Below are positions 3,001 to 61,341 of a stretch of 64,000 nucleotides of DNA, piece after piece. Source of the DNA: Peronospora farinosa (taxonomy: Eukaryota > Oomycota > Peronosporomycetes > Peronosporales > Peronosporaceae). Made by a program: the position numbers and the translations under genes. A model generated the notes under the pieces. That model did no database searches. It was not told where the DNA came from and worked only from the letters and a program-made list of their open reading frames with translations. The stretch is taken from positions 1 through 64,000 of the forward strand of contig CANTFK010000769.1 of the NCBI GenBank assembly GCA_947646735.1, given 5' to 3'. Every line of letters begins with the position of its first letter. Positions within the stretch are counted from its first letter, which is position 1.

Positions 3001-3709
3001 CTACGTTGGAAGCTACGTTACCATTAGGAAGTACTAGGCGTCGAGATCGCGATCCACGTAGGTGGCGATATCATGTGCAGCGGCATTATCAGCGGGCGAG
3101 AGAAGCAGTAAATGAGAGACTCAGGACGGCGATCCAAACACGTGCTGATCGCCACAATGAAGATCTCAAGCCTCACGAAATTGAACCAGGGGCGCAGGTC
3201 TGGTTATATTTGGATCGGGTGAAAGAAGGGTACGCTTGAAAGCTAGCACATATGTGGCATGGACCTTTTCGAGTAAAAGAAATGTGTGGAGATCACGCTG
3301 TCCGACTGGAGACTGCTGGTACACCATATCGATTATTTCCTGTCGTACATATATTCAAGTTGAAGAGAGTAAAGACGTTCCCTGATCGTCCAAAAAATTT
3401 GCTGACGATTGAAGAAGAGTATCGATTCGATTTTGACGAAGCACTTTTCCGGAAGACAGTATTGAAGGTAATCTGGAAGACGATGAATTCGAAGTGGAAA
3501 AGATTGTGGATGTACGATCTGATAGAAAGACACGTTTTGGACGAGTACATAGACAGTTTAAAGTCTACTGGAAAGGTTATGCTAACCCATCCTGGGTGGA
3601 CGAAGCCGACTTAAATTGTGGTGCCCTATTGCGAGATTTTGAACGTGGCGAGATTAGCAGGAATCGTTTTGAAGCGATGCAATCACATGAAGAGGGATCT
3701 GGTGGCTAA
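1..3709 (+). pseudogene. Ty3/gypsy Element 1 pol, 5'-truncated by window edge, frameshifted
   Basis: The reading frame enters inside reverse transcriptase (RT) and runs in pieces through a degenerate Ty3 RNase H (about 1020-1390), a second RNase H (about 1500-1900), the integrase zinc finger and core (about 2320-2860) and a C-terminal chromodomain (about 3480-3709). The RT active site reads YIVD at about 475-486 where sibling copies have YIDD, so a catalytic Asp is lost. Breaks: a one-base insertion near 530, a frameshift near 2136, a disrupted stretch at 2700-2760 and an in-frame stop near 3238. The second RNase H keeps the four acidic residues in FDGSA, NEAEY, GDSNL and NQSADR. The integrase shows the H/H/C/C zinc pattern ending CTDC and the MAYRPQANGTAER segment. 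The chromodomain contains VYWKGYANPSWVDE. It is surely a dead copy. The 3' end faces an opposite-strand gene, and its 3' LTR starts at 6268. Confidence 0.93.
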
Positions 3710-6186
3710 CGAAGATCGAATGTTGGGGATGGTATAATATGCAAAAAGGTTGCATAGGATGGTGGAAAGGAAATTTGTGTGTAATGAGTATGGCGATCGA
3801 AGGTCTGGAAAACTGGATCGCGGCTAAAGAAGCCCAACAAAAGAAGACAATTGTAACGAAAAAGAGAAACAAAATCGAATTGTATTGAACGACCAAGAAG
3901 TGTTATCGGATCACGATTGCTGTTTGGGAAAAAATTACTGGATAAACAGGCGAGAGATGAACCAGGGTGATCCGCGATAGAGGATCGATATTGGTTCCGC
4001 CAAGGCTCCGCAGAATCCAATAACGACAGTGCAGTAATCAGGTTGGGGATGTTTTTCTGCTTGCAGTCCAAACCAGGATACCATACTGGTATTTCGGAAG
4101 ACTGAGGGAAATGGAGAAAAAATGGATCCAACAAGATATCAAGATCGCAGTGCCTCATGATTATTCCCCGAAGAACGAATCGAAGTACTTTTTTCCAGCG
4201 GGGACCAGATCGTGATCGACGTTGTTTACGCTCCCGGTAAAATTTCGCCAAGTCTGGATCGCTTTCACGCTGCTCTTTCGATAGGTACAACGGATGAGTT
4301 GATTCCCAAAGCGCTTGCCGGTGTCGATCTTCAAAATCAAGATAATGGACTTTTAGCTCGTCGAACCACCCAGTCATCGGAAATGAAACTGGGGTGACCA
4401 AAGTATCAAGAGATTTCCATGGTTCCTGGTCATAAAGTGCTGCAATTTGCGCGGAAGTGACCAGCCTGGGCGTCCATAGTGAATCAGATGGCGGTATCTT
4501 GGATATAGTCAGTATGGGAAAAGGGTATCCTTTGGGCTTATAAAGATGCTTGTACAAGAAGTCCACTTCCAACTCGGCCACGCAGGTGGAGCTAATTCTT
4601 CGGGCTGACCATGGCACAACCTGAGCTGAAGATCGAGGAATGCGTTTGCGATATCCAGGAATTCACTGATTGCGCGACCCCTGAGTAGCCGGTAGATTGG
4701 CGTACTCGTGTGGTAAAAGCAATATGTTGATCTTCTCACGGGATTCGCTGGTGAAGCTAACAGCACCCTCAGAATCACTAGAGGGTTCTCCAAAAAGATC
4801 CACTTTCGAAATTTTAGTCGGGGCGGATGGAGCAGGCGATGCTGAGAGTGACTCAGACGTGGAACTGGAGGTGTCGACATTGATCGGGGAGCCAGGCGAT
4901 CCAACGTGCGGGAAGACCCCAGTTGTCGAGCCACGACGTCTAGAAGAAGAACGCGATTCAGATAGGGCTGCAAGCAGGGAATCTCCAGAACCAAAAAATT
5001 CTTCGTCGTCACTTGCCTCGGAGGGAGGGGGCGTAGGAATCGATTTCTTGTTTTTCCTTTTCGGAGGTGTGGGAATTTTCTTCTTCCCTTTCGTCTTCGA
5101 TGGGGCGGCAGGTTTTTTCCGAGGTTTTGCTTGAACTTTGGAAGCATCCGGATCACGTTTTTTAGATCCGACAGATCGGGCTGGAACAGTGGAACTAGCT
5201 GATTTAGCGGATCGTGCTGGGGCATTTCTCTGGATCGATAGAATTTTGCCTTGGATGGAGGCAGGCGGGCCCGAAGAAGAAGAGCCTACGGCTCGAGGAC
5301 GTTTGGTTGGAAGTTCGACCGCTGATGGAGACGAATACCGTTTGCTTTTCCGGGACGCCGAGCTATCTGGTGCAGGAGGATCAGCTTGGATGATTGGGAG
5401 TGATCCAGAAGCTAGCTGGGCTAAATGGGATCGAAGTGCATCCGGATCGTGGACGGCCTGATCGCGTTCCATTTCCCGATCCAAGATTTTTCGCCGTAGC
5501 TGATCCAAAGAGACATCTTTACGAAGATTCTCATTGAAAAGGTCATCATGGGTGGCTTGGAGTGTATCAAGACGATCCTGGAAAGAAGCTAGCTGGATCT
5601 GGAACTGATCCTTCAAGACTTGCTCAGTCACGGCCATTTCTCGTCGGTGTCTCTCCTGAGCATGCTGTTTCGCCGTGTTTGCTTCGAGTAAAGCGGTTTT
5701 CAAATTCGCAATCTCTTGAGATTGATCCTCTCGCAGGCCCAGTTCATCTTCAAATTCTTGGGTTTTCTGGATCGCAGTGTCGTAACGTTCCTGAAGCCGC
5801 TTGTAGCGATCCAAGATGAATTTGGACAGAGGAGGTGCTAATTCCCGGAAAGATTGCAATTCACGTTCCAGCCGAGTAGAGCGCACTTCTTGCTCTCGTA
5901 GAGCATCTTCCAAGGAACGATAACTGTCCACGACGGCAGTTTGGGCGTCCAAACGATTGTATAATGCCGCGATTGACGACTCCAAGGTATGATGATCCAC
6001 CACGGGCGGGAATTCTACGCGAGTAGAAGGAAGCAGAATCCGCGATCCGGAAGAATGTTTCATAGGCGGATCGGAAGTCAGCCGAGACTTTCCAGGTCTC
6101 GAGACAGCTGAAGAGCTTGCAGATACGACGGAATCGGAACCATCCCGGCTAACAGGGAAAGCGGCCTCAGACGAAGAAGAAGACAT
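3706..6186 (-). pseudogene. Antisense ORF of Element 1 (coiled-coil / LFG-acidic / HCDLDI protein, type A)
   Basis: A single frame of about 826 codons with one internal stop (TGA at 4663-4665, where the sibling copy has Trp in WIPGY). I start it at ATG 6186 (MSSSSSEAAF), because a start at 6330 would lie inside the LTR. Order: Ser-rich N terminus; a long heptad-like coiled coil (about residues 80-270); a basic Lys/Pro/Ser linker; the motif DLFGEPSSDSE; then a conserved C-terminal domain with QALWESTH, HCDLDILLDPFF, WYPG and AEPWRNQYRSS. The last ~80 residues are not seen in other copies, and the ORF's stop overlaps the pol stop on the opposite strand. No known family is recognised. Self-association through the coiled coil and nucleic-acid contact through the basic linker are inferences. 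The start lies 82 bp inside the 3' LTR, so its promoter is probably in that LTR read backwards. Confidence 0.85.
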
Positions 6187-6253
6187 GAGGATGGCTGGGG
6201 CAATTAATGTGGATGCGATGCACAGTCTGGCCAACACTGTATGTCGGCTAACA

Positions 6254-6267
6254 GTGCAGGGGGCGAT
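6254..6267 (+). other. Polypurine tract of Element 1
   Basis: GTGCAGGGGGCGAT sits directly before the LTR start TGTGG. The same motif precedes the 3' LTRs of Element 2 (GTGCAGGGGACGAT) and, on the - strand, Element 4 (GTGCAGGGGGCGGC). In LTR elements this is the plus-strand primer site. Its conservation in three families fixes the LTR boundary and the orientation of each element. Confidence 0.75.
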
Positions 6268-7810
6268 TGTGGAAGAGCGGCTAAACAAATTTCGTGGAGT
6301 GGAGATCGCGATCCAAGTTATGTGGACCACACACCCAGGATCGGTCGCAATCCAAGGCTGAGCGCGGTCCGACTCAGAGCGCGATCCGACTCAGAACCGC
6401 GATCCGAGGCTGAACGCGATCCAAGGCTGAGCGCGATCCGACTCAGAACCGCGATCCGAGGCTGAACGCGATCCAAGGCTGAGCACGATCCAGCTCAGAA
6501 CCGCGATCCGAATCAGAACCGCGATCCAACGTAAACCGCGATCCGACTCAGAACCGCGATCCGACTCAGAACCGCGATCCGAGGCTGAACGCGATCCAAG
6601 GCTGAGCGCGATCCAAGACTGAGCGCGATCCGACTTACAACCGCGATTTAAATCAGAATCGCGATCTAAGACTGAGCGCGATCCGACTCAGAACCGCGAT
6701 CCGACTCAGAACCGCGATCCGACTCAGAACCGCGATCCGACTCAGAACCGCGATCCGAGGCTGAACGCGATCCAAGGCTGAGAACCGCGATCCGAATCAA
6801 AACCGCGATCCAACGTAAACCGCGATCCGACTCAGAACCGCGATCCAACTCAGAACCGCGATCCGACTCAGAACCGCGATCCGACTCAGAACCGCGATCC
6901 GAGGCTGAACGCGATCCAAGGCTGAGCGCGATCCAAGACTTAGCGCGATCCAAGGCTGAGCGCGATCCGACTTACAACCGCGATCCGAATCAGAATCGCG
7001 ATCTAAGACTGAGCGCGATCCGACTCAGAACCGCGATCCGAGGCTGAACGCGATCCAAGGCTGAGCGCGATCCAAGGTAAACCGCGATCCGACTCAAAAC
7101 CGCGATCCGACTCAAAACCGCGATCCGACTCAGAACAGCGATCCGAATCAGAACCGCGATCCGAATCAGAACCGCGATCCAAGACTGAGCGCGATCCGTC
7201 TCAGAACCGCGATCCGACTCAGAACCGCGATCTGACTCAGAACCGCGATCCGACTCAGAACCGCGATCCGAATCAGGACCGCGATCCAAGGCTGAACGCG
7301 ATCCAAGATAGACTGCGATCCGACTCAGAAGCGCGATCCGACTCAGAATCGCGATCCAACGTAGGTCCGCGATCCGACCTAGATCGCGATCCAACTCACA
7401 AGGATTACGCATTATGGATCGACCGCGATCCTGAGCTGATACGCGATCTGATTCGGATCGCGATCCAAGGATAAGGCAAGATCGCCGATGGATCGGGATG
7501 GCAAAGGCATTTGGGGTGGACCACATATCGAGATCTGATTTTTCCTGAAAGGGTGACACGTGGTGATAGATCCTGGACTACAGATAGGCAGAATTGTAGG
7601 TTTCGAATTTTGATTGGTTAACACTAAACAGAGTTCAATTTTACTTCTAATACACGTGTCGACTTCTCTTCCGGGCTGGATTCTTTGGACACCCGACGTC
7701 TCGAGGAAGCCTACACACTACGCAAGTCATATCCCTGAATTGTTTGGCCAGGGATTGCAAGAACTCTCAACACAACTCAACTGCGATCGGACGCAGATAA
7801 AACACGTAGG
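6268..7810 (+). mobile_element. LTR unit a (type A), 3'-truncated, 3' LTR of Element 1
   Basis: Begins TGTGGAAGAGCGG immediately after the polypurine tract. It holds an 18-bp GCGATCC minisatellite (6346-7400) and then unique sequence with a GATTGGTTAAC stretch and an ATACACGTGTCGAC stretch. It stops at ACACGTAGG, where the next TGTGGAAGAG begins directly. The normal last ~360 bp of the LTR, ending CCACTCCACCACA, are missing here. Confidence 0.8.
6346..7400. repeat. 17-18-bp GCGATCC minisatellite in LTR unit a
   Basis: Nearly uninterrupted units of the type GCGATCCGACTCAGAACC with 17-bp variants such as GCGATCCAAGGCTGAGC and GCGATCCGAGGCTGAAC, roughly 57 copies. Every unit carries a GATC. Because 18 is a multiple of three, the array shows long open frames (SDRGSE-like peptides) in several frames and on both strands. 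I read these as non-coding. Confidence 0.95.
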
Positions 7811-9450
7811 TGTGGAAGAGCGGTAAACAGATTTCGTGGAGTGGAAATCGCGATCCAAGTTATGTGGACCACACACCCAGGATCGGTCGCAATCCAAGGC
7901 TGAGCGCGGTCCGACTCAGAGCGCGATCCGACTCAGAACCGCGATCCGACTCAGAACCGCGATGAGGCTGAACGGATCAAGGCTGAGCGCGATCCGACTC
8001 AGAACCGCGATCCGAGGCTGAACGCGATCCAAGACTGAGCGCGATCCAAGGCTGAGCGCGATCCGACTTACAACCGCGATCCGAATCAAAATCGCGATCT
8101 AAGACTGAGCGCGATCCGACTCAGAACCGCGATCCGACTCAGAACCGCGATCCGAGGCTGAACGCGATCCAAGGCTGAGCGCGATCCAACTCAGAACCGC
8201 GATCCGACTCAGAACCGTGATCCGACTCAGAACCGCGATCCGAATCAGAACCGCGATCCGAATCAGAACCGCGATCCAAGGTAAACCGCGATCCGACTCA
8301 GAACCGCGATCCGACTCAGAACCGCGATCCGACTCAGAATTGCGATCCGAGGCTGAACGCGATCCAAGGCTGAGCGCGATCCGACTCAGAACCGCGATCC
8401 GAATCAGAACCGCGATCCAAGGCTGAACGCGATCCAAGGTAGAGTGCGATCCGACTCAGAAGCGCGATCCGACTCAGAACCGCGATCCGACTCAGAACCG
8501 CGATCTGACTCAGAACCGCGATCCGAGGCTGAACGCGATCCAAGGCTAAACGCGATCCGACTCAGAACCGCGATCCGAATCAGAACCGCGATCCAAGACT
8601 GACCGCGATCCGACTCAGAACTGCGATCCGAATCAGAACCGCGATCCAACACTGACCGCGATCCAAGGCTGAACGCGATCCAAGGCTGAGCGCGATCCTA
8701 CCTAGAACCGCGATCCAAGGTAGACCGCGATCCGACTCAGAACCGCGATCCGAATCAGGACCGCGATCCAAGGCTGAACGCGATCCAAGGTAGACCGCGA
8801 TCCGACTCAGAATCGCGATCCGAATCAGGACCGCGATCCAAGGCTGAACGCGATCCAAGATAGACTGCGATCCGACTCAGAACCGCGATCCGACTCAGAA
8901 CCGCGATCCGAATCAGGACCGCGATCCAAGGCTGAACGCGATCCAAGATAGACTGCGATCCGACTCAGAAGCGCGATCCGACTCAGAATCGCGATCCAAC
9001 GTAGGTCCGCGATCCGACCTAGATCGCGATCCAACTCACAAGGATTACGCATTATGGATCGACCGCGATCCTGAGCTGATACGCGATCTGATTCGGATCG
9101 CGATCCAAGGATAAGGCAAGATCGCCGATGGATCGGGATGGCAAAGGCATTTGGGGTGGACCACATATCGAGATCTGATTTTTCCTGAAAGGGTGACACG
9201 TGGTGATAGATCCTGGACTACAGATAGGCAGAATTGTAGGTTTCGAGTTTTGATTGGTTAACACTAAACAGAGTTCAATTTTACTTCTAATACACGTGTC
9301 GACTTCTCTTCCGGGCTGGATTCTTTGGACACCCGACGTCTCGAGGAAGCCTACACACTACGCAAGTCATATCCCTGAATTGTTTGGCCAGGGATTGCAA
9401 GAACTCTCAACACAACTCAACTGCGATCGGACGCAGATAAAACACGTAGG
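7811..9450 (+). mobile_element. LTR unit b (type A), tandem copy, 3'-truncated
   Basis: Starts TGTGGAAGAGCGG at 7811 and ends at the same internal point as unit a (ACACGTAGG, then TGTGG of unit c). The unique portion (about 9040-9450) is almost base-for-base the same as 7400-7810, with few differences (for example TTTCGAATTTT against TTTCGAGTTTT). The identical truncation point says a and b are products of one tandem duplication. Confidence 0.8.
7886..9040. repeat. 17-18-bp GCGATCC minisatellite in LTR unit b
   Basis: Same unit types as in unit a, over about 1.15 kb (roughly 60 copies) but in a different order of variants. The arrays have therefore been rearranged internally since duplication. 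Confidence 0.95.
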
Positions 9451-9525
9451 TGTGGAAGAGCGGTAAACAAATTTCGTGGAGTGGAAATCGCGATCCAAGT
9501 TATGTGGACCACACACCCAGGATCG

Positions 9526-11204
9526 GTCGCAATCCAAGGCTGAGCGCGGTCCGACTCAGAGCGCGATCCGACTCAGAACCGCGATCCGACTCAGAACCGC
9601 GATCCGAGGCTGAACGCGATCCAAGGCTGAGCGCGATCCGACTCAGAACCGCGATCCGAGGCTGAACGCGATCCACGACTGAGCGCGATCCAAGGCTGAG
9701 CGCGATCCGACTCAGAACCGCGATCCAAGGTACACCGCGATCCGACTCAGAACCGCAATCCGACTCAGAACCGCGATCCGACTCAGAACCGCGATCCGAG
9801 GCTGAACGCGATCCAAGGCTGAGCGCGATCCAACTCAGAACCGCGATCCGACTCAGAACCGCGATCCAGGGTAAACCGCGATCCGACTCAGAACCGCAAT
9901 CTGACTCAGAACCGCGGTCCGACTCAGAACCGCGATCCGAGGCTGAACGCGATCCAAGGCTGAGCGCGATCCAAGACGGAACGCGATCCAAGGTAGACCG
10001 CGATACGACTCAGAACCGCGATCCAGGGTAAACCACGATCCGACTCAGAACCGCGATCCGACTCAGAACCGCGATCCGACTCAGAACCGCGATCCGAATC
10101 AGAACCGCGATCCGAATCAAAACCGCGATCCGAGGCTGAACGCGATCCAAGGCTGAGCGCGATCCGACCTAGAACCGCGATCCAAGACTGACCGCGATCC
10201 GACTCAGAACCGCGAACCGACTCAGAACCGCGATACGAGGCTGAACGCGATCCAAGACGGAGCGCGATCCAAGACGGAGCGCGATCCAAGACGGAGCGCG
10301 ATCCAAGGTAGACCGCGATACGACTCAGAACTGCGATCCAGGGTAAACCGCGAATCGACTCAGAACCGCAATCCGACTCAGAACCGCGATCCGACTCAGA
10401 ACCGCGATCCGAGGCTGAACGCGATCCAAGGCTGAGCGCGATCCAACTCAGAACCGCGATCCGACTCAGAACCGCGATCCAAGGTAAACCGCGATCCGAC
10501 TCAGAACCGCGATCCAGGGTAAACCGCGATCCGACTCAGAACCGCAATCTGACTCAGAACCGCGGTCCGACTCAGAACCGCGATCCGAGGCTGAACGCGA
10601 TCCAAGGCTGAGCGCGATCCAAGACTTAGCGCGATCCAAGGTAGACCGCGATACGACTCAGAACCGCGATCCAGGGTAAACCGCGATCCGACTCAGAACC
10701 GCAATCCGACTCAGAACCGCGATCCGACTCAGAACCGCGATCCGAGGCTGAACGCGATCCAAGGCTGAGCGCGATCCAAGGTAAACCGCGATCCGACTCA
10801 GAACCGCGATCCAAAGCTGAGCGCGATCCGACTCAGAACCGCGATCCGAATCAGAACCGCGATCCAAGGCTGAACGCGATCCAAGGTAGGCCGCGATCCG
10901 ACTCAGAATCACGATCCGAATCAGGACCGCGATCCAAGGCTGAACGCGATAAGGTAGACTGCGATCCGACTCAGAAGCGCGATCCGACTCAGAATCGCGA
11001 TCCGAATCAGGACCGCGATCCAAGGCTGAACGCGATCCAAGGTAGACCGCGATCCGACTCAGAATCGCGATCCGAATCAGGACCGCGATCCAAGGCTGAA
11101 CGCGATCCAAGATAGACTGCGATCCGACTCAGAAGCGCGATCCGACTCAGAATCGCGATCCAACGTAGGTCCGCGATCCGACCTAGATCGCGATCCAACT
11201 CACA
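9526..11204. repeat. 17-18-bp GCGATCC minisatellite in LTR unit c (longest array)
   Basis: About 1.68 kb, roughly 90 units, with blocks that look like higher-order repeats; for example the GCGATCCAGGGTAAACC-containing stretch recurs near 9865, 10022, 10340, 10515 and 10671. No coding function is supported. Confidence 0.95.
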
Positions 11205-11830
11205 AGGATTACGCATTATGGATCGACCGCGATCCTGAGCTGATACGCGATCTGATTCGGATCGCGATCCAAGGATAAGGCAAGATCGCCGATGGATCGG
11301 GATGGCAAAGGCATTTGGGGTGGACCACATATCGAGATCTGATTTTTCCTGAAAGGGTGACACGTGGTGATAGATCCTGGACTACAGATAGGCAGAATTG
11401 TAGGTTTCGAATTTTGATTGGTTAACACTAAACAGAGTTCAATTTTACTTCTAATACACGTGTCGACTTCTCTTCCGGGCTGGATTCTTTGGCCACCCGA
11501 CGTCTCGAGGAAGCCTACACACTACGCAAGTCATATCCCTGGATTGTTTGGCCAGGGATTGCAAGAACTCTCAACACAACTCAACTGCGATCGGACGCAG
11601 ATAAAACACGTAGGGCAAGGCGAAGCAAGTGCAGGACGGATCAAGTGGTCAGAAGGTTCTGCTCAAGTGGTCAGAAGATTCAAGCTTCGTTTTATTGGAT
11701 AAGGCCGTGATCGATTGGGAAGATCACACCAAGTACTCGGTTTATCTTGTGAAGATTTCCACAAGATAACCAAACCTCCTATCCCTAACCCAATTAGGAT
11801 CAACATCGACTCAAGTCCACCGAGAAGAGA

Positions 11831-11900
11831 GCAACCCGCCCTACCGACGGGTACACAAGGTGAGGAAGGCTATATACACGGAATCGGGGTACCCCCTCCG
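11831..11900 (+). promoter_or_regulatory. LTR block conserved across families (copy in LTR unit c)
   Basis: GCAACCCGCC, then CCGACGGGTACACAAGGTGAG (as two adjoining parts), then GGGGTACCCCCTCCG. The same block recurs at 20464-20533, 26521-26590 (-), 29080-29149, 55491-55559 and 58370-58439 (-), although the LTRs around it belong to different families. It contains the 10-bp palindrome GGGGTACCCC. The position, 70-100 bp from the LTR 3' end, suggests R/U5. Function is not shown by the sequence. Confidence 0.7.
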
Positions 11901-12053
11901 TTAGTCGGTCGTCCGGGCGCCAGTGGAGAGTTGAAATCGCATCAGCAATTTTGCGAATCGCCACTCCACCACAAGGATCTCAACACGCTCAAAAGAGGAA
12001 GCAGAAGAAAGGACTACGGAAACGATGGAACCCACGACGCAATTTAATGATGA

Positions 12054-15000
12054 ATGCGATGCAATAAGAGGAATCGGGGAAACAATGTGGAAGGTCTGAT
12101 GATCGAAGATGAAAGTGAACAAGTAGCGCAATCTCCATGGGTAATCAATGCGATCAGAGGGATGTCAAATGTCGATCACGTGCAAGGGCCGTGGGGTAAA
12201 GATAATTACACTCCCAATAACTACACACAGAAATGTATGGAGCGCGATCCGACAATTAATGACCGCGATCAGGCCGATCTGGATCGCGATGAACCCGATC
12301 CGACAATTGAGGACTGCGATCTGGCCGATCCGGTAGTTAATGACCGCGATCTGGCTGACCTGGCAATCAATGACCGCGATCTGGTCGATCCGATAGTTGA
12401 GGACCGCGATCTGGCCGATCCGGATCGCATGACCGCGATCTGGTTGATCTGGTAGTTGATGACCGCGATCTGGCCGATCTTGATCGTGATCTGCGAGAAC
12501 AAGAGCAAGCTAGTGATACGACGACTATCAACGACGAAGGTAATTTAGCCGGAGGAAATGTAAAGATAAAGCCTGAAGACTCGATGTATTATCACGAGAG
12601 TGGTGAACTGTATGCCGAAGACGTGGATCAGCATATGGCTGTCTTGCTTGAGATTGTGTCATCCACCGAAGAAGTTACGATTGATGATATCCAAGTGGGC
12701 GATCCGGGAGTTCCTTTAACCAAGGACCAAGAAGGTCTACGGCAATTGATTTGGGCGAACCGACACTTACTAATTGGCAAAGGAAATGCGCTTCCTCCTG
12801 CAGCTCGAGGAGCAGTATGTGATATCGATGTTGGCGGAGCACACCCGATCGCACAGCGAGTACGACCGGTCGCTCCCAAATTTCGGGAGAAGTTAGCTGA
12901 CCTAATCAAAGGATTACTATCAGCCAGGATTATCCAGCCGTCGACATCACCATGGGCTTCGCCGATTGTGGTTATCATAAAAAAGAATGGTGTCGACATC
13001 CGGTTATGTATTGACTATCGGCGGGTGAATCAACTCACGCGATTGATGGTGTATCCTATGCCGCTGATTAGCGAATTATTGCAAGATATGGATAAAGCTA
13101 TGTGGTATTGTTCGTTGGATATGGCCAGTCGTGGAAATGACCGAGCGAGCAAGAATGATTTCTGCGTTTATCACGCCGTCAGGCCTGTTCGAGTGGTTAC
13201 GAATGCCGTTTGGGCTAAAAAACGCTCCGCAGATTTACCAACGTCTAATTGATAATGCACTGTATGGATACCTCAATATCGGTACGGATCCAAACGCAAT
13301 TGCCACAGGATCACTCGACTCCACTGATACGGTAACGGGATCGCCAAAGCTGGTTGATGTATTCACAGAAGGCGAACCGGATACTAGCCAGAAGCCATCT
13401 GTGCTCGGCCGAAGGTCATATATTGATGACATACTGATTCCAGCAACATCGTGGGCCTCCTTATATGATAAGGTAAAGCGATCGTTAAAAGTATGCAATG
13501 AATGGAATTTGTCGATCAGTCTCGCTAAAAGTTTCTGGGGACGACGTAAAGTGGATTACCTGGGTCATCAAGTCTCACTTGCAGGAATAGAAGCTCATCC
13601 AAAGGATTTGGGATCGCTGGTGAGTATTCCTTTCCCAAAAACGTTGCAGATCGTTGCAATCGTTTCTGGGAAGCTTGAATTACTATAGTCGATTTGTCGA
13701 AGACTTTGCGATTTATGCGTCAGTGCTATATGAATTACGGGAAGCAGATTTCCACGAAATCCGCTGTTCTGATAAGATGAATGCATTGGATTCGAATATC
13801 GCCACCAGGAATGATTCGGATCAAACCTCCGATATTGGGGGCGATCCAGATCTAGAAGGACGGACTCGATGGGAAAAAGCGATGATCGCATTTACCATGT
13901 TGAAAGTCAAGATCGCTAATACCCCGATCCTCAGACACTTCGATCCAGATCGGCCTCCGGTAATTGTCGTATATGCGAGTAAATGGGCAGTTTCAGCAGC
14001 TTTGTTGCAGGAGTATGATGGTATATATTGGCCAGTTACGTTTACAAGCCGAACGCTGAAGCCTAATGAGATCAATTACGGAATGGTCGAGAAGGAGATA
14101 CTAGCCTTACTTCGGATTTTGGATATATGTTATTGCATGCTAGTCTCGCGAGAGATTAAAGTTCTTACGCGGTTCTCGACGATGGCCTGGTTGGTGCAAT
14201 CCTCCAGTCTCAATGGCAGGCTAGGTAGGTGGGCCGCATTATTATCGACCCGGACGTTGGAGATCAAGAAATGTGAAAAGGGCGAAGATGAAATACTTGG
14301 TGCCCTGGCTGCAAGTGTGACTCCCCGTGAAGAAGTCGATGAAGTGTTGATCGCGATCGCTCCCCGGAAACAGCCAAGGCAAACTCTAAGTATGCCACCG
14401 CCTACGGTGAAAGAAGATGAAAGTCTCTTGGTCGTCAGTTTCGATGGATCGGCACGAACCAAGCGAAAGGGTGGATCATACAGTGCGATAATATGGAAAC
14501 TTCCTGAGTGAACTATTGTGGCTGCTGCATCGGAATATGCAACGGACTTAACAGTGAACGAAGCCGAATATCGGGGTTTACTATTAGGCTTTGATCTGTT
14601 GGAGAATCAGACTAGGGGACGCAATATTATTTGTGGCGACTCCAACCTAGTGATTCGACAGATGCGGGGTGAAATCGATTGCAAGGCTCCTGGACTGCAG
14701 TTGTTGAGACAGAAAGCAATGGAGAAGCTTCGATCATGGCCGATCCATGAGTTTTTACACATGAAACACGACTGGAACCAAAGTGCAGATCGACTGGCGA
14801 GTACTGCTTTACAGAAGGAACAAGGTGTGGTCATCATTTCGGAAGGAGATCGCCAAGATCTCATTAACCTCAATAGACTGGATGAGTTGTTGAAGTCGAA
14901 GCATACCGAATCGGTGGTTAAAGTTGCTGCGATTACCAGATCAACTAGGAGAAGACGTCAACCACCCGAGATCTTGCAAGAAGAATTTGTGCGGCGAATG

Positions 15001-16633
15001 CGAAGTGAACGTATACGACAAGCTCAAGATGAGGAATGCTGGATCGCTAACCTAAAGATTTTTCTGATTGGTGATATAACGAATCTCAGTATGGAAGAAG
15101 CGAAGGCATGCGCCAAGATTGCAAGTGATTATGAGGTGGATGAAAGCGATCTTCTCTTTTTTTGCCCGGGAGCTGTGAAAAATTCGGAAGATCGCGATGG
15201 AATTGCTCGTTTGGTGGTGCCAGAAACTCTTCAGCAAATTTTTGTACGTCACTACCATGCCAGTTTGCAAGGAGGGCACCAGGGAATCGGTAGGACGTAT
15301 CAACGGATCCGATCTCGTTTTCATTGGAGAGGCCTGTATCGCAGTGTACAACGATATGTGAGCGAATGCACTGACTGCGAGACTGGAAAAGGACGTCCGG
15401 TTATTAATGGAGAGTCTCCGGGAAATTTACAAGCTACTTATCCGTTCCAGATTATTGCCATGGATCATATTCCATCGCTGCCTAGATCTTTTAAAGGCAA
15501 CACTGAATTATTGGTCTGGGTCGATCTATTTTCGGGCTATGTGGTTGCCAAGGCGAGCAAATCTAGAACAGCTCAGACGATCGCCGAGAATTACGAGGAG
15601 TGTGTCTTTCGACGATTCGGTGCGAGTGAAGCAATACGGCACGATCTGGAACCTGGATTTATGTCGGATTTTTTTCGTGCGTTCAATCGACTTATTGGGC
15701 AAAAGCAAAGAGAACGATGGCATATCGCCCTCAAGCGAATGGGACTGCTGAACGCATGGTCCAGACCTTAACCTGAGCGTTTTAAATGTACGTCTCGGAT
15801 GTCAATCAACAAGATTGGGACGAGTATGCCGAGCGCCTAACTATTCGCAATCAATACCGCCCAAGATCGGGTGCGTGGCGAAACGCCTTTTTTCTTGATT
15901 CATGATTGGGACCCGCGATCTACGTTGGAAGCTACGTTGCCATTAGGAAGTACTCAGGCGTCGAGATCGCGATCCACGTAGGTGGCGATGTCATGTGCAG
16001 CGGCACTATCAGCGGGCCAGAGAAGCAGTAAATGAGCGACTTAGGACTGACGATCCAAACTCGTGCTGATCAGCCACAATGAAGATCTACAAGCCTCACG
16101 AGATTGAACCAGGGGCCCAAGTCTGGTTATATTTGGATCGTGTGAAAGAAGGATACGCTCGAAAGCTAGCACATATGTGGCATGGACCTTTTCGAGTAAA
16201 AGAAATGTGTGGAGATCATGCTGTCCGACTGGAGATTGCTGGTACGCCATATCGATTATTTCCCGTCGTACATATATCCAATTTGAAGAAAGTGAAGACG
16301 TTCCCTGATCGTCCAAAAAATTTGCTGACGATCGAAGAAGAATATCGATTCGATTTTGACGAAGCACTTTTTCCGGAAGACAGTATTGAAGGTAATCTGG
16401 GAGACGATGAATTCGAAGTGGAAAAGATTGTGGATGTACGATCTGATAGAAAGACACGTTTTGGACGAGTACATAGACAGTTTAAAGTCTACTGGAAAGG
16501 TTATGCTAACCCATCCTGGGTGGACGAAGCCGACTTAAATTGTGGTGCCCTATTGCGAGATTTTGAACGTGGCGAGATTAGCCGGAATCGTTTTGAAGTG
16601 ATGCAATCACATGAAGAGGGATCTGGTGGCTAA
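12054..16633 (+). pseudogene. Ty3/gypsy Element 2 pol (RT - dead RNase H - archaeal-type RNase H - integrase - chromodomain)
   Basis: Begins only ~80 bp after the LTR. The first ~280 codons hold an acidic repeat (12240-12490) and the usual pre-RT segment, with no CCHC knuckle and no DTG/DSG protease. RT runs about 12900-13690 with an intact YIDD in RRSYIDDILIP. The first RNase H (about 13960-14280) has YAS and TRF where active enzymes have DAS and TDH. The second RNase H (about 14430-14810) keeps D-E-D-D. Integrase (about 15190-15770) has the HH-CC finger and core. An uninterrupted 184-aa frame at 16079-16633 ends in the chromodomain. Breaks: frameshift near 12430, 11-bp deletion near 13130, indel near 13650, Trp-to-TGA at 14509-14511, indel near 15708, and a cluster of one-base insertions at 15840-16090. 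Confidence 0.93.
12240..12490 (+). repeat. Coding 30-bp minisatellite: acidic decapeptide repeat
   Basis: Units of the form GACCGCGATCTGGCCGATCC plus 10 further bases encode DRDLADPVVN-like decapeptides, about seven to eight copies. They lie in the N-terminal part of the Element 2 pol frame. A one- or two-base loss near 12430 shifts the frame within the array; the frame that follows leads straight into the pre-RT segment. The GCGATC core is the same as in the LTR minisatellite. Confidence 0.8.
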
Positions 16634-16834
16634 CGAAGATCGAATGTTGGGGATGGTATAATATGCAAAAAGGTTGCATAGGGTGGTGGAAAGGAAATTT
16701 GTGTGTAATGAGTATGGCGATCGAAGGTCTGGAAGACGAGATCGCGGCTAAAGAAGCCCAACAAAAGAAGACAATTTTAACGAAAAGGAGGAACAAAATG
16801 GAATTGTATTGAACGACCAAGAAGTGTTATCGGA

Positions 16835-19222
16835 TCACGATTGCTGTTTGGGAAAAAATTTACTGGATAAACAGGCGAGAGATGAACCAGGGTGATCCGC
16901 GATAGAGGATCGATATTGGTTCCGCCAAGGCTCCGCATAATCCAATAACGACAGTGCAGTAATCAGGTTGGGAATGTTTTTCTGCTTGCAATCCAAACCA
17001 GGATACCATGGTCGCACTTCTGCGTACACTGGAAAGTGGAGGAAGTATGGATCCAACAATATGTCCAGATCACAGTGGCCTTCGATCATCCCTTGGAGAA
17101 TAACGCGAAGAATAGTCTTCCAGCGGGTTCCAGATCTCGACCGACGCTGTTTGCGTTGCTGACAAAATTTCGCCAGCTCTGTATACTCCTTCCGATGTTC
17201 GCGGGAGATATACATGAAGTGGGTTGCCTTCCACAAGGCTTGCCTATGGCGATCTTCATATTCCAGGTAAATGTCAGCCAGATCTTTGAACCAACCAGTC
17301 AGAGGGAAGGAGATGGTCGGCCGACGACGGTTTCTGATCGTAAAGCGCAGTAACTTGTGCCGGGGTGATCAGTCGGGGAATCCACTCAGAATCAAGAAGA
17401 GATTTGGGATTGGCTTGAGGGGTGAACATATACCCTCTCGGTCGGGACAAGTGTCGATAGAAGAACTCCACTCCCAATTCGTCAACACTGGTCAGACTGA
17501 CCCGTCGGGCGGACCATGGAGCAACCTGAGTTGACGATCGGGGCTTTCGCTCACGATATCCTGGGATCCACGCATCACGTGATTTTTGGAGATCCGGCAG
17601 GTCGGCGTATTGAGCGGGAGTGAGCAACGGGTTTATATATTCACGGATGTCACTGGAAACGCTAATCTTCCCGTCCGAGTCGCTAGAAGGTTCGCCAAAA
17701 AGGTCGTCCTTGGAAATCTTGGTCGTAAGGCTAGGGGGCGTATCAGGACTCGAGACTGGTGATTTTCTGAAGGGTGAGATACCATTGTGAATTATGATAG
17801 GGGACTGAGACGATCCGGTGTTGCCAGATAGTTTCGTCATGGTGTTGCGACGCCTCGCGGTTGAACGCGATCCGGATAGAGCAGCAACTGTAGCGTCCTC
17901 GGGATCGGAAGACCATCCGTCATACTCAGAGTCAGGCGAAGGCGAGGGACACGTTTTGCGTTTCTTTTTAGCTTTCGACGAAACATTGGGTCGCGTTGTA
18001 ATAACGGATCGCACCGACTTGGCAGACCGTTCTGAGGTACCAGATCGCGCCGAAGTCCCAGATCGCGCCGGAGTACCAGATCGCGCCAAAGTATTAGACT
18101 GTGCCGAAGTACCGGATTGTGCCGGAATTTCAGATCGCGTCGAAGTCCCAAATCGCGCCGGAGTGCCAGATCACGTCAGAGTACCAGATCGCGCTGGAAT
18201 GCCAGATCCCTCCGAGGTCGCAGATTGAGCAGAAGTACCGGAAGCGCTGCGGGGACGTTTACAGGGGACGTCCAGAGTCGGTGAAGATGACGCACGTTTG
18301 CGATGGGTGACGAGGGATTGGAAAGCGCGAGAAGGCTAGTCGGAGAAGGAAGTAAGCCCGTAGCCAATTCTGCCAGATGCGAACGAAGTAAATCTCGATC
18401 CTGGATGGCCAGATCGCGCTCTGCCTCTCGATCTGCAACTTCGGTACGAAGTCGATCCAAAGCTGCGTCGTTCCGAATACTCGTACTCAGGAGGCGATCA
18501 TGATCAAGCTCGAGCGCGCTCAGTGTCTCTTGCAGTTGTTTCGCGGCTTGCTGGGCCTGAGAACGAGCTTTCTTGTACTTGGATGCCTTGCTTTTTATGC
18601 GTCTAAAGTCAGCGGCCAAAGCACTGTCTGCTGTATTACGCTGTGCGAGGATGGAGTCCAGTTGCTGTTGGAGGGACGCGATCTGCTGCCGGAATTTTCC
18701 ATCCAGAGTTCGCTGAAGATTGGCCGCCTCACGGCGGAATTTATCCTGCAGGCGATTTTTCTCTGCATTGGCTCGAAACAAGGCATTCTTCAGATCGGCG
18801 ATCTCCTGAGACTGATCCGTTAGCTGGTTCAGTTCTTCGTCAAGACCTTCGGCCATGTGGAGAGCGGCATCAAGTTGTTGACGCAACTCTTCATCTCGAC
18901 GCAAGACGAATGTGCACAGTCGAGGCACCAACTCATGATACGAGTTGAGTTCCGTCTCCAGCTGATTTCCACGAAATTCCTGCTCCTGCAAGGCATTTTC
19001 CATGGAGTGATAGCTTTCCACGATGGTATCCTGGGCTTACAGACGGTCATACAATGAAGAAACCAACGAGATCGCGTTTTGACGATCCGTAACGGGAGGA
19101 AGGATTATCCGGGTAGACGGGAGCAAGATACGCGATCCGGTAGAGGAATTCATCGTTGGATCGCGCGTGACGAGCACACCAGTTTGGGGGTGGCGATCGT
19201 TTTCGGGTGTAGATCTGGCCAT
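16835..19222 (-). pseudogene. Antisense ORF of Element 2 (type B)
   Basis: Starts at ATG 19222 (MARSTPENDR), 86 bp inside the 3' LTR. An in-frame TAA near 19037 is shared with the inverted copy at 28018. A long coiled coil follows (18176-19021), then a frameshift in an 18-bp repeat encoding ARSGTP-like hexapeptides. The second part (17274-18089) has DLFGEPSSDSD, WIPGY and VAPWSARR. The third (16835-17236) has HCDLDILLDPYF, WYPG and AEPWRNQYRSS. Order and motifs match Element 1's antisense protein, but the N-terminal two thirds differ strongly while the last ~140 residues are nearly the same. No known domain is recognised. Confidence 0.82.
18010..18222. repeat. 18-bp minisatellite inside antisense ORF type B
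   Basis: About a dozen units like CAGATCGCGCCGGAGTAC. On the - strand they encode a hexapeptide (A/S-R-S-G-T-P/S). The array begins exactly at the outer end of the inverted-repeat arm (18223). It shares both the 18-bp period and a GCGATC core with the LTR minisatellite. Confidence 0.85.
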
Positions 19223-19293
19223 AAGGGACGAAGTGACGAGAAGAGTGAAGCGAGACAGTGCACAGTTAGGCCGACACTGTATGTGGGCTATCG

Positions 19294-19307
19294 GTGCAGG
19301 GGACGAT
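19294..19307 (+). other. Polypurine tract of Element 2
   Basis: GTGCAGGGGACGAT directly precedes TGTGG of the LTR at 19308, as in Elements 1 and 4. An inverted copy of this junction lies at 27749-27762. Confidence 0.7.
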
Positions 19308-48950: not shown

Positions 48951-48959
48951 CATGTAGGT

Positions 48960-51678: not shown

Positions 51679-51732
51679 GCAAACACGAGTGAATAGGTTG
51701 GCGGTGGAGCCAACCTATTCACTCGTGTTTGC
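51679..51732. repeat. Perfect 24-bp hairpin inside copia element 2
   Basis: Arm GCAAACACGAGTGAATAGGT plus TGGC, 6-base loop GGTGGA, then the exact complement. It falls in the protease/GAG-pre-integrase region and has no counterpart in the copia protein, so it was created by a local inverted duplication. Confidence 0.95.
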
Positions 51733-54565: not shown

Positions 54566-55630
54566 TGTCGTGAAGTAATTGATGTGCGATATGGAGACCC
54601 CAAAGGCCAATTGGATTCGGAGTATAAATGACCGTGTATCAGGGAAAAGAGACCAGAGAGAAGGGGCCTCGAGGGGAAGCGACCATTGGCGGAAAAAATT
54701 TGCAGAAACCACAAAAGATAAGTCAGTATCAGAAGACCGGTTAACCGGTACTGAAAGGAGTCGACCATGGTCCCTTTTAGAATTCCCGGTCCCTCATTGG
54801 TGATTCCGGTCCCTCATAGGTCGACCCGATCCCTAGTCAGTCGACCTGGGTCCCTCGTCGGTCGCCTCGATCCCTCATCGGAAATACGGTCCCTCATTGG
54901 TCGACCTGGTCCCTCTTCGGTCGACCTGGATCCCCCGGGGTTCATCCACTTCTGACCAGTAAACACAAGGATCAGACCAGTCGACGCAAAGAATCAGAGA
55001 TTCAGGTAAGGATAGAGTAAAGGAGCTAATAAGATAGGACTATATTACATACTACTCAATTTTCGATCTACGTGGCACGACTCCGTCACCCAAGAAGAAC
55101 TTGCTCTAAGTTACTCACTGTTCCGGGAAGGTATATATTTTGGCCCCCCGTCGAAGACAGTTGTGTAGCGAAGTTCAAGTGCGAATAGAGCTCCAGAATA
55201 TATTTGGCCTGTGAGTTTGTTCGAGTAGCAACCCCCCAAGACTCGCTATCGGAAGCGGTCTCCCTTACCTCACGGTCCGGGAGCAAAGTAAAGGTTAGGT
55301 GGTTGATACACCTGAAACAAGAAGGAAAAGGCCAGGGACAAGCTCCCTGAAGAATTGGCTCTAAGTCCACTCTCGACAAGGTCGATCGAGTGGCCACCTA
55401 CCGGCCCACCGAGTGAAGCATATCCACTTGAGGCCCCCAGGTCTACCTCCCTCAAGGCATACGTCTACATCACCAAGTCCTCCGAAGAGTGCAACCCGCC
55501 AGCCGACGGGTACACAAGGTGAGAGAAGGTCCATACGCGGCATCGGGGTACCCCCTCCGACAGTCGGCAGTCCGTAACAGTGAGTGGTTTGGGGTCTTAT
55601 CATACAATTTTGAGAACCCGCTCCACCACA
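54566..55630 (+). mobile_element. Solo LTR type D (Element 4 family) with 4-bp duplication CGAC
   Basis: 1065 bp, TGTCGTGAAG...GCTCCACCACA. It matches the Element 4 LTR at 58299-59429 in reverse; the 3' half is nearly identical (55086-55630 against 58299-58843), while the U3 repeat is degenerate. CGAC lies at 54562-54565 and 55631-55634. Removing the LTR and one CGAC restores the conserved copia junction ACG CGA CCG GAT (TRPD), which proves the boundaries. Confidence 0.93.
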
Positions 55631-56210
55631 CGACCGGATATTGCGCTGGCGGTGCGTCAACTGAGTCGAAATTTAGAGAAGTCAAGTGAAGATCATCTAC
55701 TCATGTGATGCGCTACCTCAAGTCTACTGCAACAAATGGGATCTGCTATGAAGGAAGGTGAGGTGAGCTGAAGATGCGTGCATTCAGTGATGCTGAATAA
55801 GGAAGTGACAAGGATATTCGGCGTTCTCTTAGTGACAATGATGATAAACAATTCTCCAGTTATTTTTAAGTCAATAAAACTAAACCGTGTATCCCTAAGC
55901 TCTGCGGAAGCAGAATATGTGGCGCTTTCTTGTTCGTCCAAATAGTACTATGGAAAAAAAATTAATGTTGGAGATAAAGATCAAGGTTGACGATTTAGTA
56001 ATTGTGTACTAACACAATCAGAGTGCAGTTGCTGTCGCGAAAACGAAGGATATCAAAGTCGTACAAAGCACATGATATACAATATCATTTAGTTCACGAT
56101 CAAGTCAAGTTCAAGGTTATTCAGCTGAGATGTGTCGTAGCTAAGCTACATCTCGACTGTACTTAAGCTAACGCAATTCCGACGAAGAAGTTTTTGCTGC
56201 TCGTGGCGAA

Positions 56211-57740: not shown

Positions 57741-58298
57741 GGAGCGCAGAGGAGCAACAGCGCAATTCACGCCATAATTGGGAGCATATGGATGCTCTAT
57801 GCTTTCACCAGACCATCCCCTGGAAGTCGCCCTCGCTGGCGATTTGTAGCCTCTTCTCGTTGCTGACCTAGTAGGAAGGTATGCCTTGTGCTTCAGCTCG
57901 ACGATGGTATTGAAGTTTCTGACGAGCTGGAAGACAGTCGCAGTATCGCCTTCGTTCTCGTCGGGCTCCATGTCGTACAATTCATCATAGTTTCTCAAAG
58001 CTTATTGATCTGTAAAATTAGATAATGGAGTTTGAAAAGGATTAAGACCTAAAAAGACCCCCTATGGCCAAGATCCCGCCCCTTAAACTTTTAAAACCAC
58101 TTCGCCGAAATGGTCAAGACCAATTGACTATTGTGTCAATGCAGATTCCTACACAAATAGGTTCGATCACCACATACTATTGTTTTTTTTTAAAGCGCAT
58201 GCTCAAAATTACTCACCCATATACCCATAGACATTCCCACTACCTATCAATATACCCATGGATTATGGGTGGAAAAGAGCGGGTAGTACCCATGCAGG
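57741..58298. other. Flank of Element 4, no gene seen
   Basis: Contains a run of ACCCATA/TACCCATG-type short repeats (58205-58295) reaching the LTR. The last four bases before the LTR are CAGG, the expected target duplicate of Element 4. Confidence 0.45.
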
Positions 58299-59429
58299 TG
58301 TGGTGGAGTGGTTTTTAAAAATTGTATGATAAGACCCCAAACCACTCACTGTTACGGACTGCCGACTGTCGGAGGGGGTACCCCGATGCCGCGTATGGAC
58401 CTTCTCTCACCTTGTGTACCCGTCGGCTTGCGGGTTGCACTCTTCGGAGGACTTGGTGATGTAGACGTATGCCTTGAGGGAGGTAGACCTGGGGGCCTCA
58501 AGTGGATATGCTTCACTCGGTGGGCCGGTAGGTGGCCACTCGATCGACCTTGTCGAGAGTGGACTTAGAGCCAATTCTTCAGGGAGCTTGTCCCTGGCCT
58601 TTTCCTTCTTGTTTCAGGTGTATCAACCACCTAACCTTTACTTTGCTCCCGGACCGTGAGGTAAGGGAGACCGCTTCCGATAGCGAGTCTTGGGGGGTTG
58701 CTACTCGAACAAACTCACAGGCCAAATATATTCTGGAGCTCTATTCGCACTTGAACTTCGCTACACAACTGTCTTCGACGGGGGGCCAAAATATATACCT
58801 TCCCGGAACAGTGAGTAACTTAGAGCAAGTTCTTCTTGGGTGACGGAGTCGTGCCACGTAGATCGCAAACTGAATAGTATGTAATATAGTCCTATCTTAT
58901 TAGCTCCTTTACTCTATCCTTGCCTGACGCTTTGATTCCTTGCGTCGACTGGTCTGATCCTTGTATTAACTGGTCAGGAGTGGCTGAACCCCGAAAGGCC
59001 GAGGTCGACCAATGAGGGACCCACGTCTACCGATGAGGGACCCAGGTCTACCGATGAGGGACCTGGTCGACCAATGAGGGACCCAGGTCTACCGACGAGG
59101 GACCGGGTCGACCGACGAGGGACCCAGGTCTACCGATGAGGGACCGGGTCGACCAATGAGTGACCCAGGTCTACCAAATGAGGGACCAAGGTCTACCAAC
59201 GAGGGGCCAGGTCGATCATGAAGGACCCTGGTCAAATCCCTTCGGTACCGGTTAATCGGTACCCTGATACTGATTTTTCTTCTGTGGGTCCTGCGGATTG
59301 TTCTCCACCAATGGTCGCTCCCCTTCGAGGCCCCTGTCTCTCTGGTCTCCTGTCCCTGACCCACGGTCTATACACCGACTCCAACTAAATTCTGGGATCC
59401 CCACATCACAAAAACAGCGTTTCACCACA
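58299..59429 (-). mobile_element. LTR type D, 3' LTR of Element 4
   Basis: 1131 bp. On the + strand it runs TGTGGTGGAGTGG...CGTTTCACCACA. Orientation is fixed by the adjoining polypurine tract (59430-59443, - strand GTGCAGGGGGCGGC). It holds a 20-21-bp minisatellite at 58990-59230 and the conserved block at 58370-58439. Confidence 0.9.
58990..59230. repeat. 20-21-bp minisatellite in LTR type D
   Basis: About 11 units alternating CAGGTCTACCGATGAGGGAC+C and GGGTCGACCAATGAGGGACC. A decayed version lies in the solo LTR (about 54770-54945, read as GGTCCCTCATTGGTCGACC), and a two-unit trace at 61605-61660. Confidence 0.92.
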
Positions 59430-59475
59430 GCCGCCCCCTGCACTTGCTCAACCGTACAACGAATTGAGCACGCGC

Positions 59476-61341
59476 ATGTCTTCACTCCCTTCGTCACGTA
59501 GTATCTTCACTTTCCTTTTTGTTGATCATCCATCTCTAATACGTGTCGTTCCAGCCATGTCTTCTCCTGGTTCTGACCCACCATCTGATGACCTCCCGTC
59601 CGATGACCCACCGTCTGAAGAGCCGACCTCGGTCGTCCCCGCGCCTTCGGTTGCTCCTGGCTCTGACCCACCATCTGCTGACTCACCGTCTGAAAAGCCG
59701 ACCTCGATCGTCCCCGCGCCTTCGATTGACTATTCTTTCGAAGAGGCGTCCTTGGCCGACCTTCCCGGGCCGGTATCTTCATCGTTGAGTTCTGCAGAAA
59801 CTGTCGTCGTTGACAGCTCTCCTGTTTTCACGGCTTTGCCTCCTGCCAAGACGGCCGATTCTTCTGCCACGCCGGTCTCCATGGTTGACAATCCGTCTTC
59901 CGCGCCAGTCGACGCGCGTGTAGCTCTGCAGGAACTGCATGCTCTCGTGGACGCACAGTCTCACCGCATAGAGTACTGCGAGGGTCGGCTAGGTGTCGTT
60001 CCCACTTCGGCCACCTTATTGTCCACTCGTTGTGAGCGTTTGGAAGAGACGTTACGCGCCAATTCCCGGCTGGTGGTCCAACTCCGCGAAGATCTTCAGC
60101 GCGAGACGACTCTGGTGGATCGTCTGCGATGGAAGATCGACCACAACCGAATCCGTTACTCGCTTCTCGCTGCCGAGCTTGATCACGTCGACTTCTCCGA
60201 TGGGCCACCTCCGGGACCAGCTCCTCTTTCGGCCGCTTCTCCCCCAGCCGTAGGTTCCCCGTCGAGGCCGGCGAAAGCTCTTGGTAAACGGTCCAGGCGG
60301 CCGTCACCATGTGTACCTGCCAAAGTTTCCAAGCCTCCGCGACCCGACCCATCTGCCATACCGCTGTCGGCAGTCTCTGGTGGTCGCTCTCCTGTCGTGC
60401 TGGAGTCTCCAGACGACGACCTCAGTGACGACAGCGAGACACTTCGGGCAGCTCTGGCCAAGTATCGTTCTGCTAATCGGCGCCCCACCAGTATGAACCT
60501 TATACGTCTTCCGCCGACGTCCGCTCCTCCATCGAGGACCACCTCGGCTACCGGCCTCTCGCTGAAACGGGCGATGTTCGGGACGTCTGACTCGGAGACT
60601 GAGTCGTCTGCGTAGAAAGAAAAGAGCGCATCCACTGTTGCGGACAACACCCTGCTCCCTTCGGCCGACTCTTGCTTGCTCCCCAAGGATGCCATGATCC
60701 CAGGGTACATGCAGTCGAAGACCTTCTCCGCTGCGGAAGTGGCACCTTGGCCGGTCGACCTGGTCAATTCTTGGTGCATTGTAACAATGTCTCCCAAAGA
60801 CTTGGTCGACCAGCTGAATCTACCTTAGGGTTGGTTTGGTCCTCCGGACGGAAACCTTGACCGCCCTCCCAAATGGAAGAAGTCGTTGGTGAACCCTCCA
60901 ATGATCCAGAGATTGCTAGCGGCGGAACATTGGGTGGAAGCTCGTGTTCCCATGCAGCCCGTTTCCTTCCGACCTGTTGGCTGGTTCGCCCAGTTGGCAG
61001 CGGCCTACATCCAGTTTGACGAAGAGCATAGTCAAGCACTTTGGGAGGCGACTCACTGCCTGTGGATCTCCAAGGACCAAGCGCGCGCGAATTCTCTCCT
61101 CGCATTTTACTACAACGCGCGGAAGAAGCTTCGGAGTCGGGCGACTCGAGCGTGGCGGGAGGTGGTCGACCTTATCTTCATTGGGATGAGCAAGGGCCAC
61201 TGCGATCTCGACATTTTCCTGGACCCCTTCTTCCGTCATCTTCCTCGAACCCGCCGTGTAGTTTATTGGTTCCCTGGTCGTGAAGAGGGGTCGGACCCGG
61301 TCGACCTGCTTGAGGCCCTTCGGGTGTCGGATTCCGCGTGA
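59476..61341 (+). pseudogene. Antisense ORF of Element 4 (type D)
   Basis: One frame of about 622 codons broken only by TAG at 60613-60615 and TAG near 60826. The start is ATG 59476 or 59557 (MSSPGSDPPS). A Pro/Ser/Asp repeat region comes first (SDPPSxDxPSxEPTS units, 59570-59730), then a coiled coil (about 59925-60180), a Ser/Pro/Arg linker and AMFGTSDSETES. The C-terminal part follows with MIPGYMQSK, VAPWPVDLV, QALWEATHCLWISK, GHCDLDIFLDPFFRH and YWFPG. The first stop sits between linker and C-terminal domain, as in Element 1. No known domain; not closely related to types A-C outside the motifs. Confidence 0.83.

Follow-up and report, generated by a model that had tools for sequence, protein, structure and literature searches.

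Chronos-type Ty3/gypsy elements of the oomycete Peronospora farinosa carry a third gene in the interval from pol to the 3′ LTR, in antisense orientation relative to gag-pol. We followed this gene (aORF) from four copies in a single window, the first 64,000 nucleotides of contig CANTFK010000769.1, to the rest of the genome. Its product appears to resemble no known protein family. Our overall reading, that it is an accessory regulator acting in the nucleus and translated from antisense transcripts begun in the 3′ LTR, has in our estimate a probability of about 0.5.

The earlier note on this DNA had claimed a convergent opposite-strand frame between pol and 3′ LTR in four Ty3/gypsy copies. Using the intact proteins of families B–E and the family-B pol as tblastn queries, we recovered, at each of the four sites, a reverse-strand frame with a pol converging on it, the aORF matches spanning 3916–6081 (-) for A1, 16823–19219 (-) for A2, 20593–22565 (+) for A3 and 59140–61425 (+) for A4. 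What had been described as long ORFs are homologous frames, none of them intact (0/4). The A1 aORF (family A; 3706–6186, -) is split into two ORFs by an in-frame stop at 4663–4665. Its family homology stops near 3919, and that of A4 extends to about 61425, so the ends originally given, 3706 and 61341, are mere stop positions. The convergent A1 pol (1–3703, +) is truncated by the window start and matches RNase H, a second RNase H (RVT_3) and integrase in Pfam. Between the A1 ATG and the 3′ LTR lies an 81-nt spacer (6187–6267) that ends in a purine-rich tract and whose boundary is a matter of interpretation; the 3′ LTR region (6268–11973) starts with TGTGG, ends with CCACA, and contains an internal duplication and many short repeats. 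A2, from family B, consists of a frameshifted gag-pol remnant (11974–16627, +), a frameshifted aORF (16823–19222, -) and, 85 nt from the aORF ATG, a 3′ LTR (19308–20605, TGTGG...CCACA) whose end falls within the A3 aORF. The latter (family C; 20593–22565, +) is frameshifted, lacks its N-terminus and converges on its pol (22825–26488, -). The A4 aORF (family D; 59140–61425, +) contains in-frame stops and converges on a pol that reaches the window end (61692–63999, -). There is also a fifth, family-B fragment (27837–28133 and 29223–29935, +), interrupted by an LTR at 28134–29221. As to the three families claimed, A1 and A2 come from related families (67% amino acid identity in the C-terminal domain, or C-domain) between which sequence was exchanged, and the genome holds at least one further family, E, beyond those in the window. 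That the window copies are dead, that their pol is of Chronos type and that other elements were already known to have antisense genes at this site had been missed.

Open copies are found elsewhere in the genome. In family B, 14 of the 16 fetched copies have an uninterrupted frame (837–898 aa) with a shared ATG, 85 nt from the 3′ LTR edge, and a shared C-terminus, and intact copies are also present in families C, D and E. The genome contains at least 143 C-domain matches at E <= 0.001, a recurrence that excludes a chance origin of the frame. For 97 of 128 pol 3′ ends, the best in the search, a convergent match lies no more than 3.2 kb away; with coil matches added this rises to 106/128, and among the matches listed a partner is missing for the other 22. 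The C-domain is apparently absent from at least five pol-bearing copies, which is compatible with action in trans and also with dispensability. Annotated relatives are present in Peronospora matthiolae, P. effusa and Phytophthora capsici.

The host elements were classified by their pol. Two family-B copies gave Pfam matches above cut-off for RVT_1, RT_RNaseH, RVT_3 and Integrase_H2C2, with rve under cut-off in both. A chromodomain (PF00385) at the pol 3′ end scored 25.3 bits in one of them (L011; cut-off 25.1) and 21.1 in the other (L009), a match that is marginal by score and correct in position. On the basis of this domain order we consider the hosts to be Chronos-type Ty3/gypsy elements, since Chronos, known from Peronosporales and Pythiales, likewise has RT, a native RNase H, a second RNase H, integrase and a chromodomain. 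In Chronos the native RNase H has lost its catalytic residues, and 1,555 Chronos RNase H domains are tabulated for Phytophthora infestans (PMC5348765). The main text of that paper mentions no antisense gene, the words “antisense”, “opposite” and “env” being absent from it, whereas the hosts described here have one.

In the aORF proteins a coiled coil is followed by a basic, disordered linker and a helical C-domain, with predicted helices at 46–131 and 137–286 and predicted disorder at 288–652. The structure model of the C-domain is middling (mean pLDDT 63.3), and the domain has no significant Pfam match and no significant fold match. Pfam scans of the aORFs yielded nothing above the curated cut-off, in line with the earlier note, which had recognised no known domain; DNA- or RNA-binding domains were likewise not recognised in these proteins. 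A KR-type basic cluster, the putative nuclear signal, occurs in 10/10 proteins, although this is a short pattern counted without a chance control. The C-domain is common to the families, as had been claimed from shared motifs, but two of these are not invariant: families C and E have QSLWED in place of QALWE, and the AEPW position reads AWPW in D and VEPW or TDPW in C and E.

We regard the aORF as almost certainly a protein gene under selection. Between families, dN/dS of the C-domain is 0.13–0.19 (the two measurable pairs), not near 1, in keeping with the proposal that the protein was selected; the corresponding values for pol are 0.06–0.10, so the aORF is under purifying selection and less constrained than pol. 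In 8/8 intact copies the aORF is the only stop-free frame, each of the remaining five, including all those on the opposite strand, containing at least 10 stops, and in 6/6 pairs it is the best conserved of the six. Constraint on an overlapping sense-strand product, the second refuting case named in the earlier note, is therefore disfavoured as the cause of the similarity. A related alternative is that the antisense RNA matters and not the protein, the frame being a by-product of a regulatory RNA or of an overlapping sense product. In family D, two of the three copies examined do have an open frame of 397 aa on the opposite strand, but the codon-level constraint in the aORF frame, together with the stops and poorer conservation of the other frames, makes this explanation extremely improbable.

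Other roles can be envisaged for a selected protein. It might serve the particle or replication and not regulation, acting as an accessory structural protein or RNA chaperone, in effect another Gag-like component whose oligomers package the element's RNA. The long coiled coil and basic disordered linker would suit such a role, as would its occurrence beside pol in most copies; however, gag-pol already includes a Gag-like region (a weak PF03732 match), Pfam detected neither a capsid nor a zinc knuckle nor any other domain in the aORFs, and a separately transcribed antisense gene would be an odd site for a bulk structural protein. We consider this unlikely. It is more doubtful still that the protein counters host RNA silencing, itself provoked by complementary sense and antisense transcripts: convergent transcripts across the whole aORF would indeed be complementary, and double-stranded RNA and siRNA have been raised for plant antisense ORFs (PMC7264820), but no similarity to silencing suppressors was found in Pfam. 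The interval between pol and 3′ LTR is also the site of env, which might suggest an Env-like protein in reversed orientation. Such proteins are encoded in sense orientation and this one is antisense, and 0/10 proteins have a transmembrane-grade stretch (maximum 19-residue Kyte-Doolittle mean 1.42), leaving this possibility with hardly any likelihood.

For an accessory regulator made from the 3′ LTR, the position of the start codon is informative. The ATG of families A and B lies 81–85 nt from the 3′ LTR, a gap so short that the mRNA most likely starts within the LTR, and on this spacing we consider transcription from the 3′ LTR probable. The 3′ LTR would thus start the antisense mRNA and hence fire in both directions. 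An oomycete promoter consensus was not above chance (2 seen versus 2.17 expected). More tentatively, the protein may oligomerise via its coiled coil and enter the nucleus, where the basic helical C-domain could act on nucleic acid or chromatin of the element; the protein would then be an accessory factor that regulates, in trans, transcription, RNA handling or integration. We put a nuclear trans-acting regulator at slightly below even odds. By analogy, the reading as a whole draws on the nuclear product reported for gene23 of maize Grande, a plant Tat element, and on the 3′ LTR of HTLV, which contains an antisense promoter (PMC7264820).

An ORF antisense to gag-pol, in the pol–3′ LTR interval and in most copies, defines aORF-3R elements, and this is what we find here. 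The protein was proposed to be undescribed; it belongs to no Pfam family, but antisense genes at this position are known from plant Tat elements (PMC7264820, PMC11963269) and from Boty of Botrytis cinerea, which is listed with one (PMC7264820). The Tat genes are similar in position and orientation and are likewise retained by the majority of a family's copies, and some of their products have coiled-coil or Smc-like segments (PMC7264820, PMC11963269); a second, archaeal-type RNase H is found in both element groups (PMC5348765, PMC10508981). Grande differs in reportedly having its own promoter upstream of gene23 (PMC7264820), compared with the LTR-proximal ATG of families A and B. The oomycete elements also differ from Tat in their chromodomain, in hosts from another kingdom, and in aORFs that match neither TRP28 nor any other Pfam family. 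Identity with Retand TRP28 (Transposase_28, PF04195) was rejected, since the aORFs of families B–E and of their relatives do not match it, although very remote homology is conceivable; a six-frame genome search for PF04195 was empty, but its controls were silent too and it carries no weight. Boty resembles our elements by description, as a case outside plants. The same kind of likeness extends to the 3′-end antisense gene of HTLV, HBZ, although that virus is unrelated and an LTR promoter is only inferred for the oomycete elements.

Backward accessory genes were thus already known in plant elements, and what is new is a gene of this sort in oomycete elements, with a product that resembles no known family. 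It adds a non-Pfam protein family to an abundant element group, offers a non-plant case with young, open copies as a testing ground for the function of antisense retrotransposon genes, and extends the plant–oomycete convergence already described for RNase H. A bolder and rather improbable idea is that the second RNase H is functionally coupled to an antisense accessory gene with a nuclear product, the two forming one package that arose independently several times, with unrelated proteins, in plant Tat elements, HTLV-type retroviruses and oomycete Chronos-type elements; if true, two-RNase-H replication would create a need, e.g., for control of a bidirectional LTR, that an antisense protein meets. 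Databases label family members as uncharacterized, hypothetical or unnamed (P0005, P0008, P0011), and part of them may therefore be taken for genes of the host.

The long open reading frame between pol and the 3' LTR (aORF, for antisense ORF) is a selected, element-borne, antisense protein gene. In the window, which contains nested Ty3/gypsy elements, the four frames reported earlier as converging on pol (A1–A4, from families A–D) all lie beyond the pol 3' end, on the opposite strand and directed towards pol. None is intact: A2 and A3 carry frameshifts, A1 one in-frame stop and A4 more than one. A fifth fragment was identified at 27837–28133 and 29223–29935 (+). Searching the whole assembly (46.85 Mb, 274 contigs) yielded at least 155 matches for the A1 N-terminal part, at least 137 for A3 and at least 133 for A4, and for family B at least 143 for the C-terminal domain (C-domain) and at least 161 for the N-terminal coiled coil. 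Open frames, measured stop to stop, were found in families D (771, 768 and 728 aa), C (752 and 715 aa) and E, a further family (754 and 753 aa); none of eight family A loci, the window copy among them, has an intact aORF. For family B, 16 copies with long frames were fetched (93–100% pairwise protein identity). All 16 have their ATG 85 nt away from the edge of the LTR, and all except L016 and L024 reach a common C-terminus at 837–898 aa, with lengths differing by multiples of six residues in 13 of these 14, as expected from an 18-nt repeat in the linker.

The earlier note had attributed the persistence of the shared motifs to selection on the protein, and pairwise dN/dS values (NG86, YN00 and ML) bear this out. 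Between families A and B, the C-domain has dN 0.24 and dS 1.3–1.8 (ratio 0.13–0.19), and between C and E, for which YN00 gave no value, dN 0.36 and dS 1.9–2.2 (ratio 0.16–0.19); the remaining family pairs show saturated or very high dS. Ratios for the N-terminal parts are 0.21–0.43 (A-B) and 0.29–0.44 (C-E), and three pairs within family D gave 0.35–0.47, 0.36–0.49 and 0.54–0.69, and the ratios for B, C and E copies of very low divergence range between 0.3 and 2.3 and are barely informative. As pol gave 0.064–0.068 for RT-RNase H and 0.09–0.10 for a near-identical 3' part in the A-B comparison (an integrase piece was saturated), the aORF is constrained, yet less tightly than pol. Constraint on an overlapping sense-strand product, the rival explanation for this conservation, does not agree with the reading frames: the aORF frame alone is stop-free in 8/8 copies, the other five frames having at least 10 stops, and it is the best conserved of the six in 6/6 pairs (for example, 0.67 versus 0.37–0.60 for A-B). 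Without its recombined tail (90–98% identical), the A-B C-domain has saturated dS and dN 0.27–0.28. A tract 90–99% identical between A1 (window 3167 to ~4060) and A2 (16090 to ~16985) runs from pol into the aORF C-terminus between far less similar flanks and reflects sequence exchange between two element families.

The association with pol was examined at the best 128 pol 3' ends, counting aORF matches up to 3.2 kb downstream. Among the matches listed, a convergent one was found for 97 of these 128, including 67 with a C-domain match at 194–696 nt (median 202), and a same-strand match for 2. For nine of the remaining 31, a convergent match to the coil or linker brings the total to 106/128, leaving 22/128 with no partner among the matches listed. 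In family B, the aORF and pol stop codons are 183–185 nt apart in 12/12 copies measured, and among the 12 copies whose gag-pol frame reaches 1870 aa or more, 10 carry an aORF frame longer than 900 aa. In five of the nine cases with only a coil or linker match, on contigs C180, C187, C189, C222 and C254, the coil ends 521–633 nt from pol, versus ~1.9 kb in full copies, with no C-domain in between among the matches listed. These family B copies seem to have shortened aORFs adjoining pol from which the C-domain is missing, although such absences are not proof because 140 of 573 candidates were scored in the C-domain search. The gag-pol frame of the C180 copy spans 1937 aa. Copies with good pol and no C-domain are consistent with a trans-acting protein, and equally with a dispensable one.

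An alignment of 17 sequences has 13 invariant columns, and conservation is almost complete at the C-D-D, DP-F, W-P and PW positions. An AlphaFold2 model of the full-length B protein of 877 aa, built from 16 sequences, has a mean pLDDT of 53.8, with helices at 46–131 and 137–286 (mostly 73–88), disorder at 288–652 and a helical C-domain thereafter. Modeled alone, the C-domain reached a mean of 63.3, with blocks between residues 91 and 200 at 74–91, and structure comparison returned no significant match. KR-type basic clusters, a short pattern counted without a chance control, occur in 10/10 proteins, and none of the 10 proteins examined has a transmembrane-grade stretch. Because the ATG is 81–85 nt from the LTR in families A and B, antisense transcription probably begins within the 3' LTR; the encoded protein would form an oligomer, enter the nucleus and act on the element's nucleic acid or chromatin.

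Ten proteins match the family B C-domain at E ≤ 0.001: P0005 and P0009 from Peronospora matthiolae, P0008 from Phytophthora capsici, P0010, which we take to be P. capsici from its label Phyca11, and six unnamed records. One of the latter, the environmental protein P0007, has the C-domain fused in frame to RT and RNase H; this single case could reflect a rearranged copy or faulty assembly. For the family D domain, the sole database match, at 98% identity, is P0011 from P. effusa, so the host is probably that species or a close relative. Antisense-gene elements listed in one source are Grande, for which a nuclear product and its own promoter are reported, RIRE2, Retand, PvRetro13 and Boty (PMC7264820). 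Bdelloid rotifer elements also have extra ORFs, but these are not presented there as antisense (PMC5408684). TRP28, the domain of plant Tat/Retand antisense proteins, was not found in the oomycete proteins by Pfam scan. Searches of an open-access library, covering listings and passages of PMC5348765, PMC10508981 and PMC6264045, turned up no antisense gene described for oomycete elements.

Family B gag-pol has the order RVT_1, native RNase H, RVT_3 RNase H, integrase and chromodomain (Pfam, some below cut-off), and RVT_3 is also present in A1 and A2 pol. The same order is described for Chronos, an oomycete Ty3/gypsy type with a second RNase H (PMC5348765). The LTR (TGTGG...CCACA) is followed one base later by TGGTGCGCGTGCCCGGAT, which we read as a putative primer-binding site, and a short purine-rich tract precedes the 3' LTR (GTGCAGGGGACGA in B, GTGCAGGGGGCGA in A). 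In three B copies, the two LTRs share 98.5–99.4% identity across the 341–721 nt open to comparison, so these copies are young. No LTR edge was located in families C–E, where the A/B motif is absent. GATCGCG arrays, seen at window 6268–11973 and at 1330–1520 and 3030–3282 of the family B locus L009, are a possible binding site: 205 of 296 window matches fall within 6000–11999 (raw counts, no shuffled control), and L009 has 45, with 11 in the LTR and 13 in the aORF linker at 18-nt steps, versus 1, 0 and 0 in loci of families C, D and E.

The A1 LTR region (6268–11973) contains tandem, partly truncated LTR units with start-to-start distances of 1640 and 2164 nt, which look like the product of unequal exchange. 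Inverted copies of the family B LTR and aORF parts (18223–20605 and 26449–29925, 99.5–99.7% identical) flank the A3 element, one of them interrupted by an LTR at 28134–29221. Upstream of A4 lies an LTR-like inverted pair (54785–55631 and 58298–59148, 94% identical), and a host-like Vps41 gene is found at 36241–38325.
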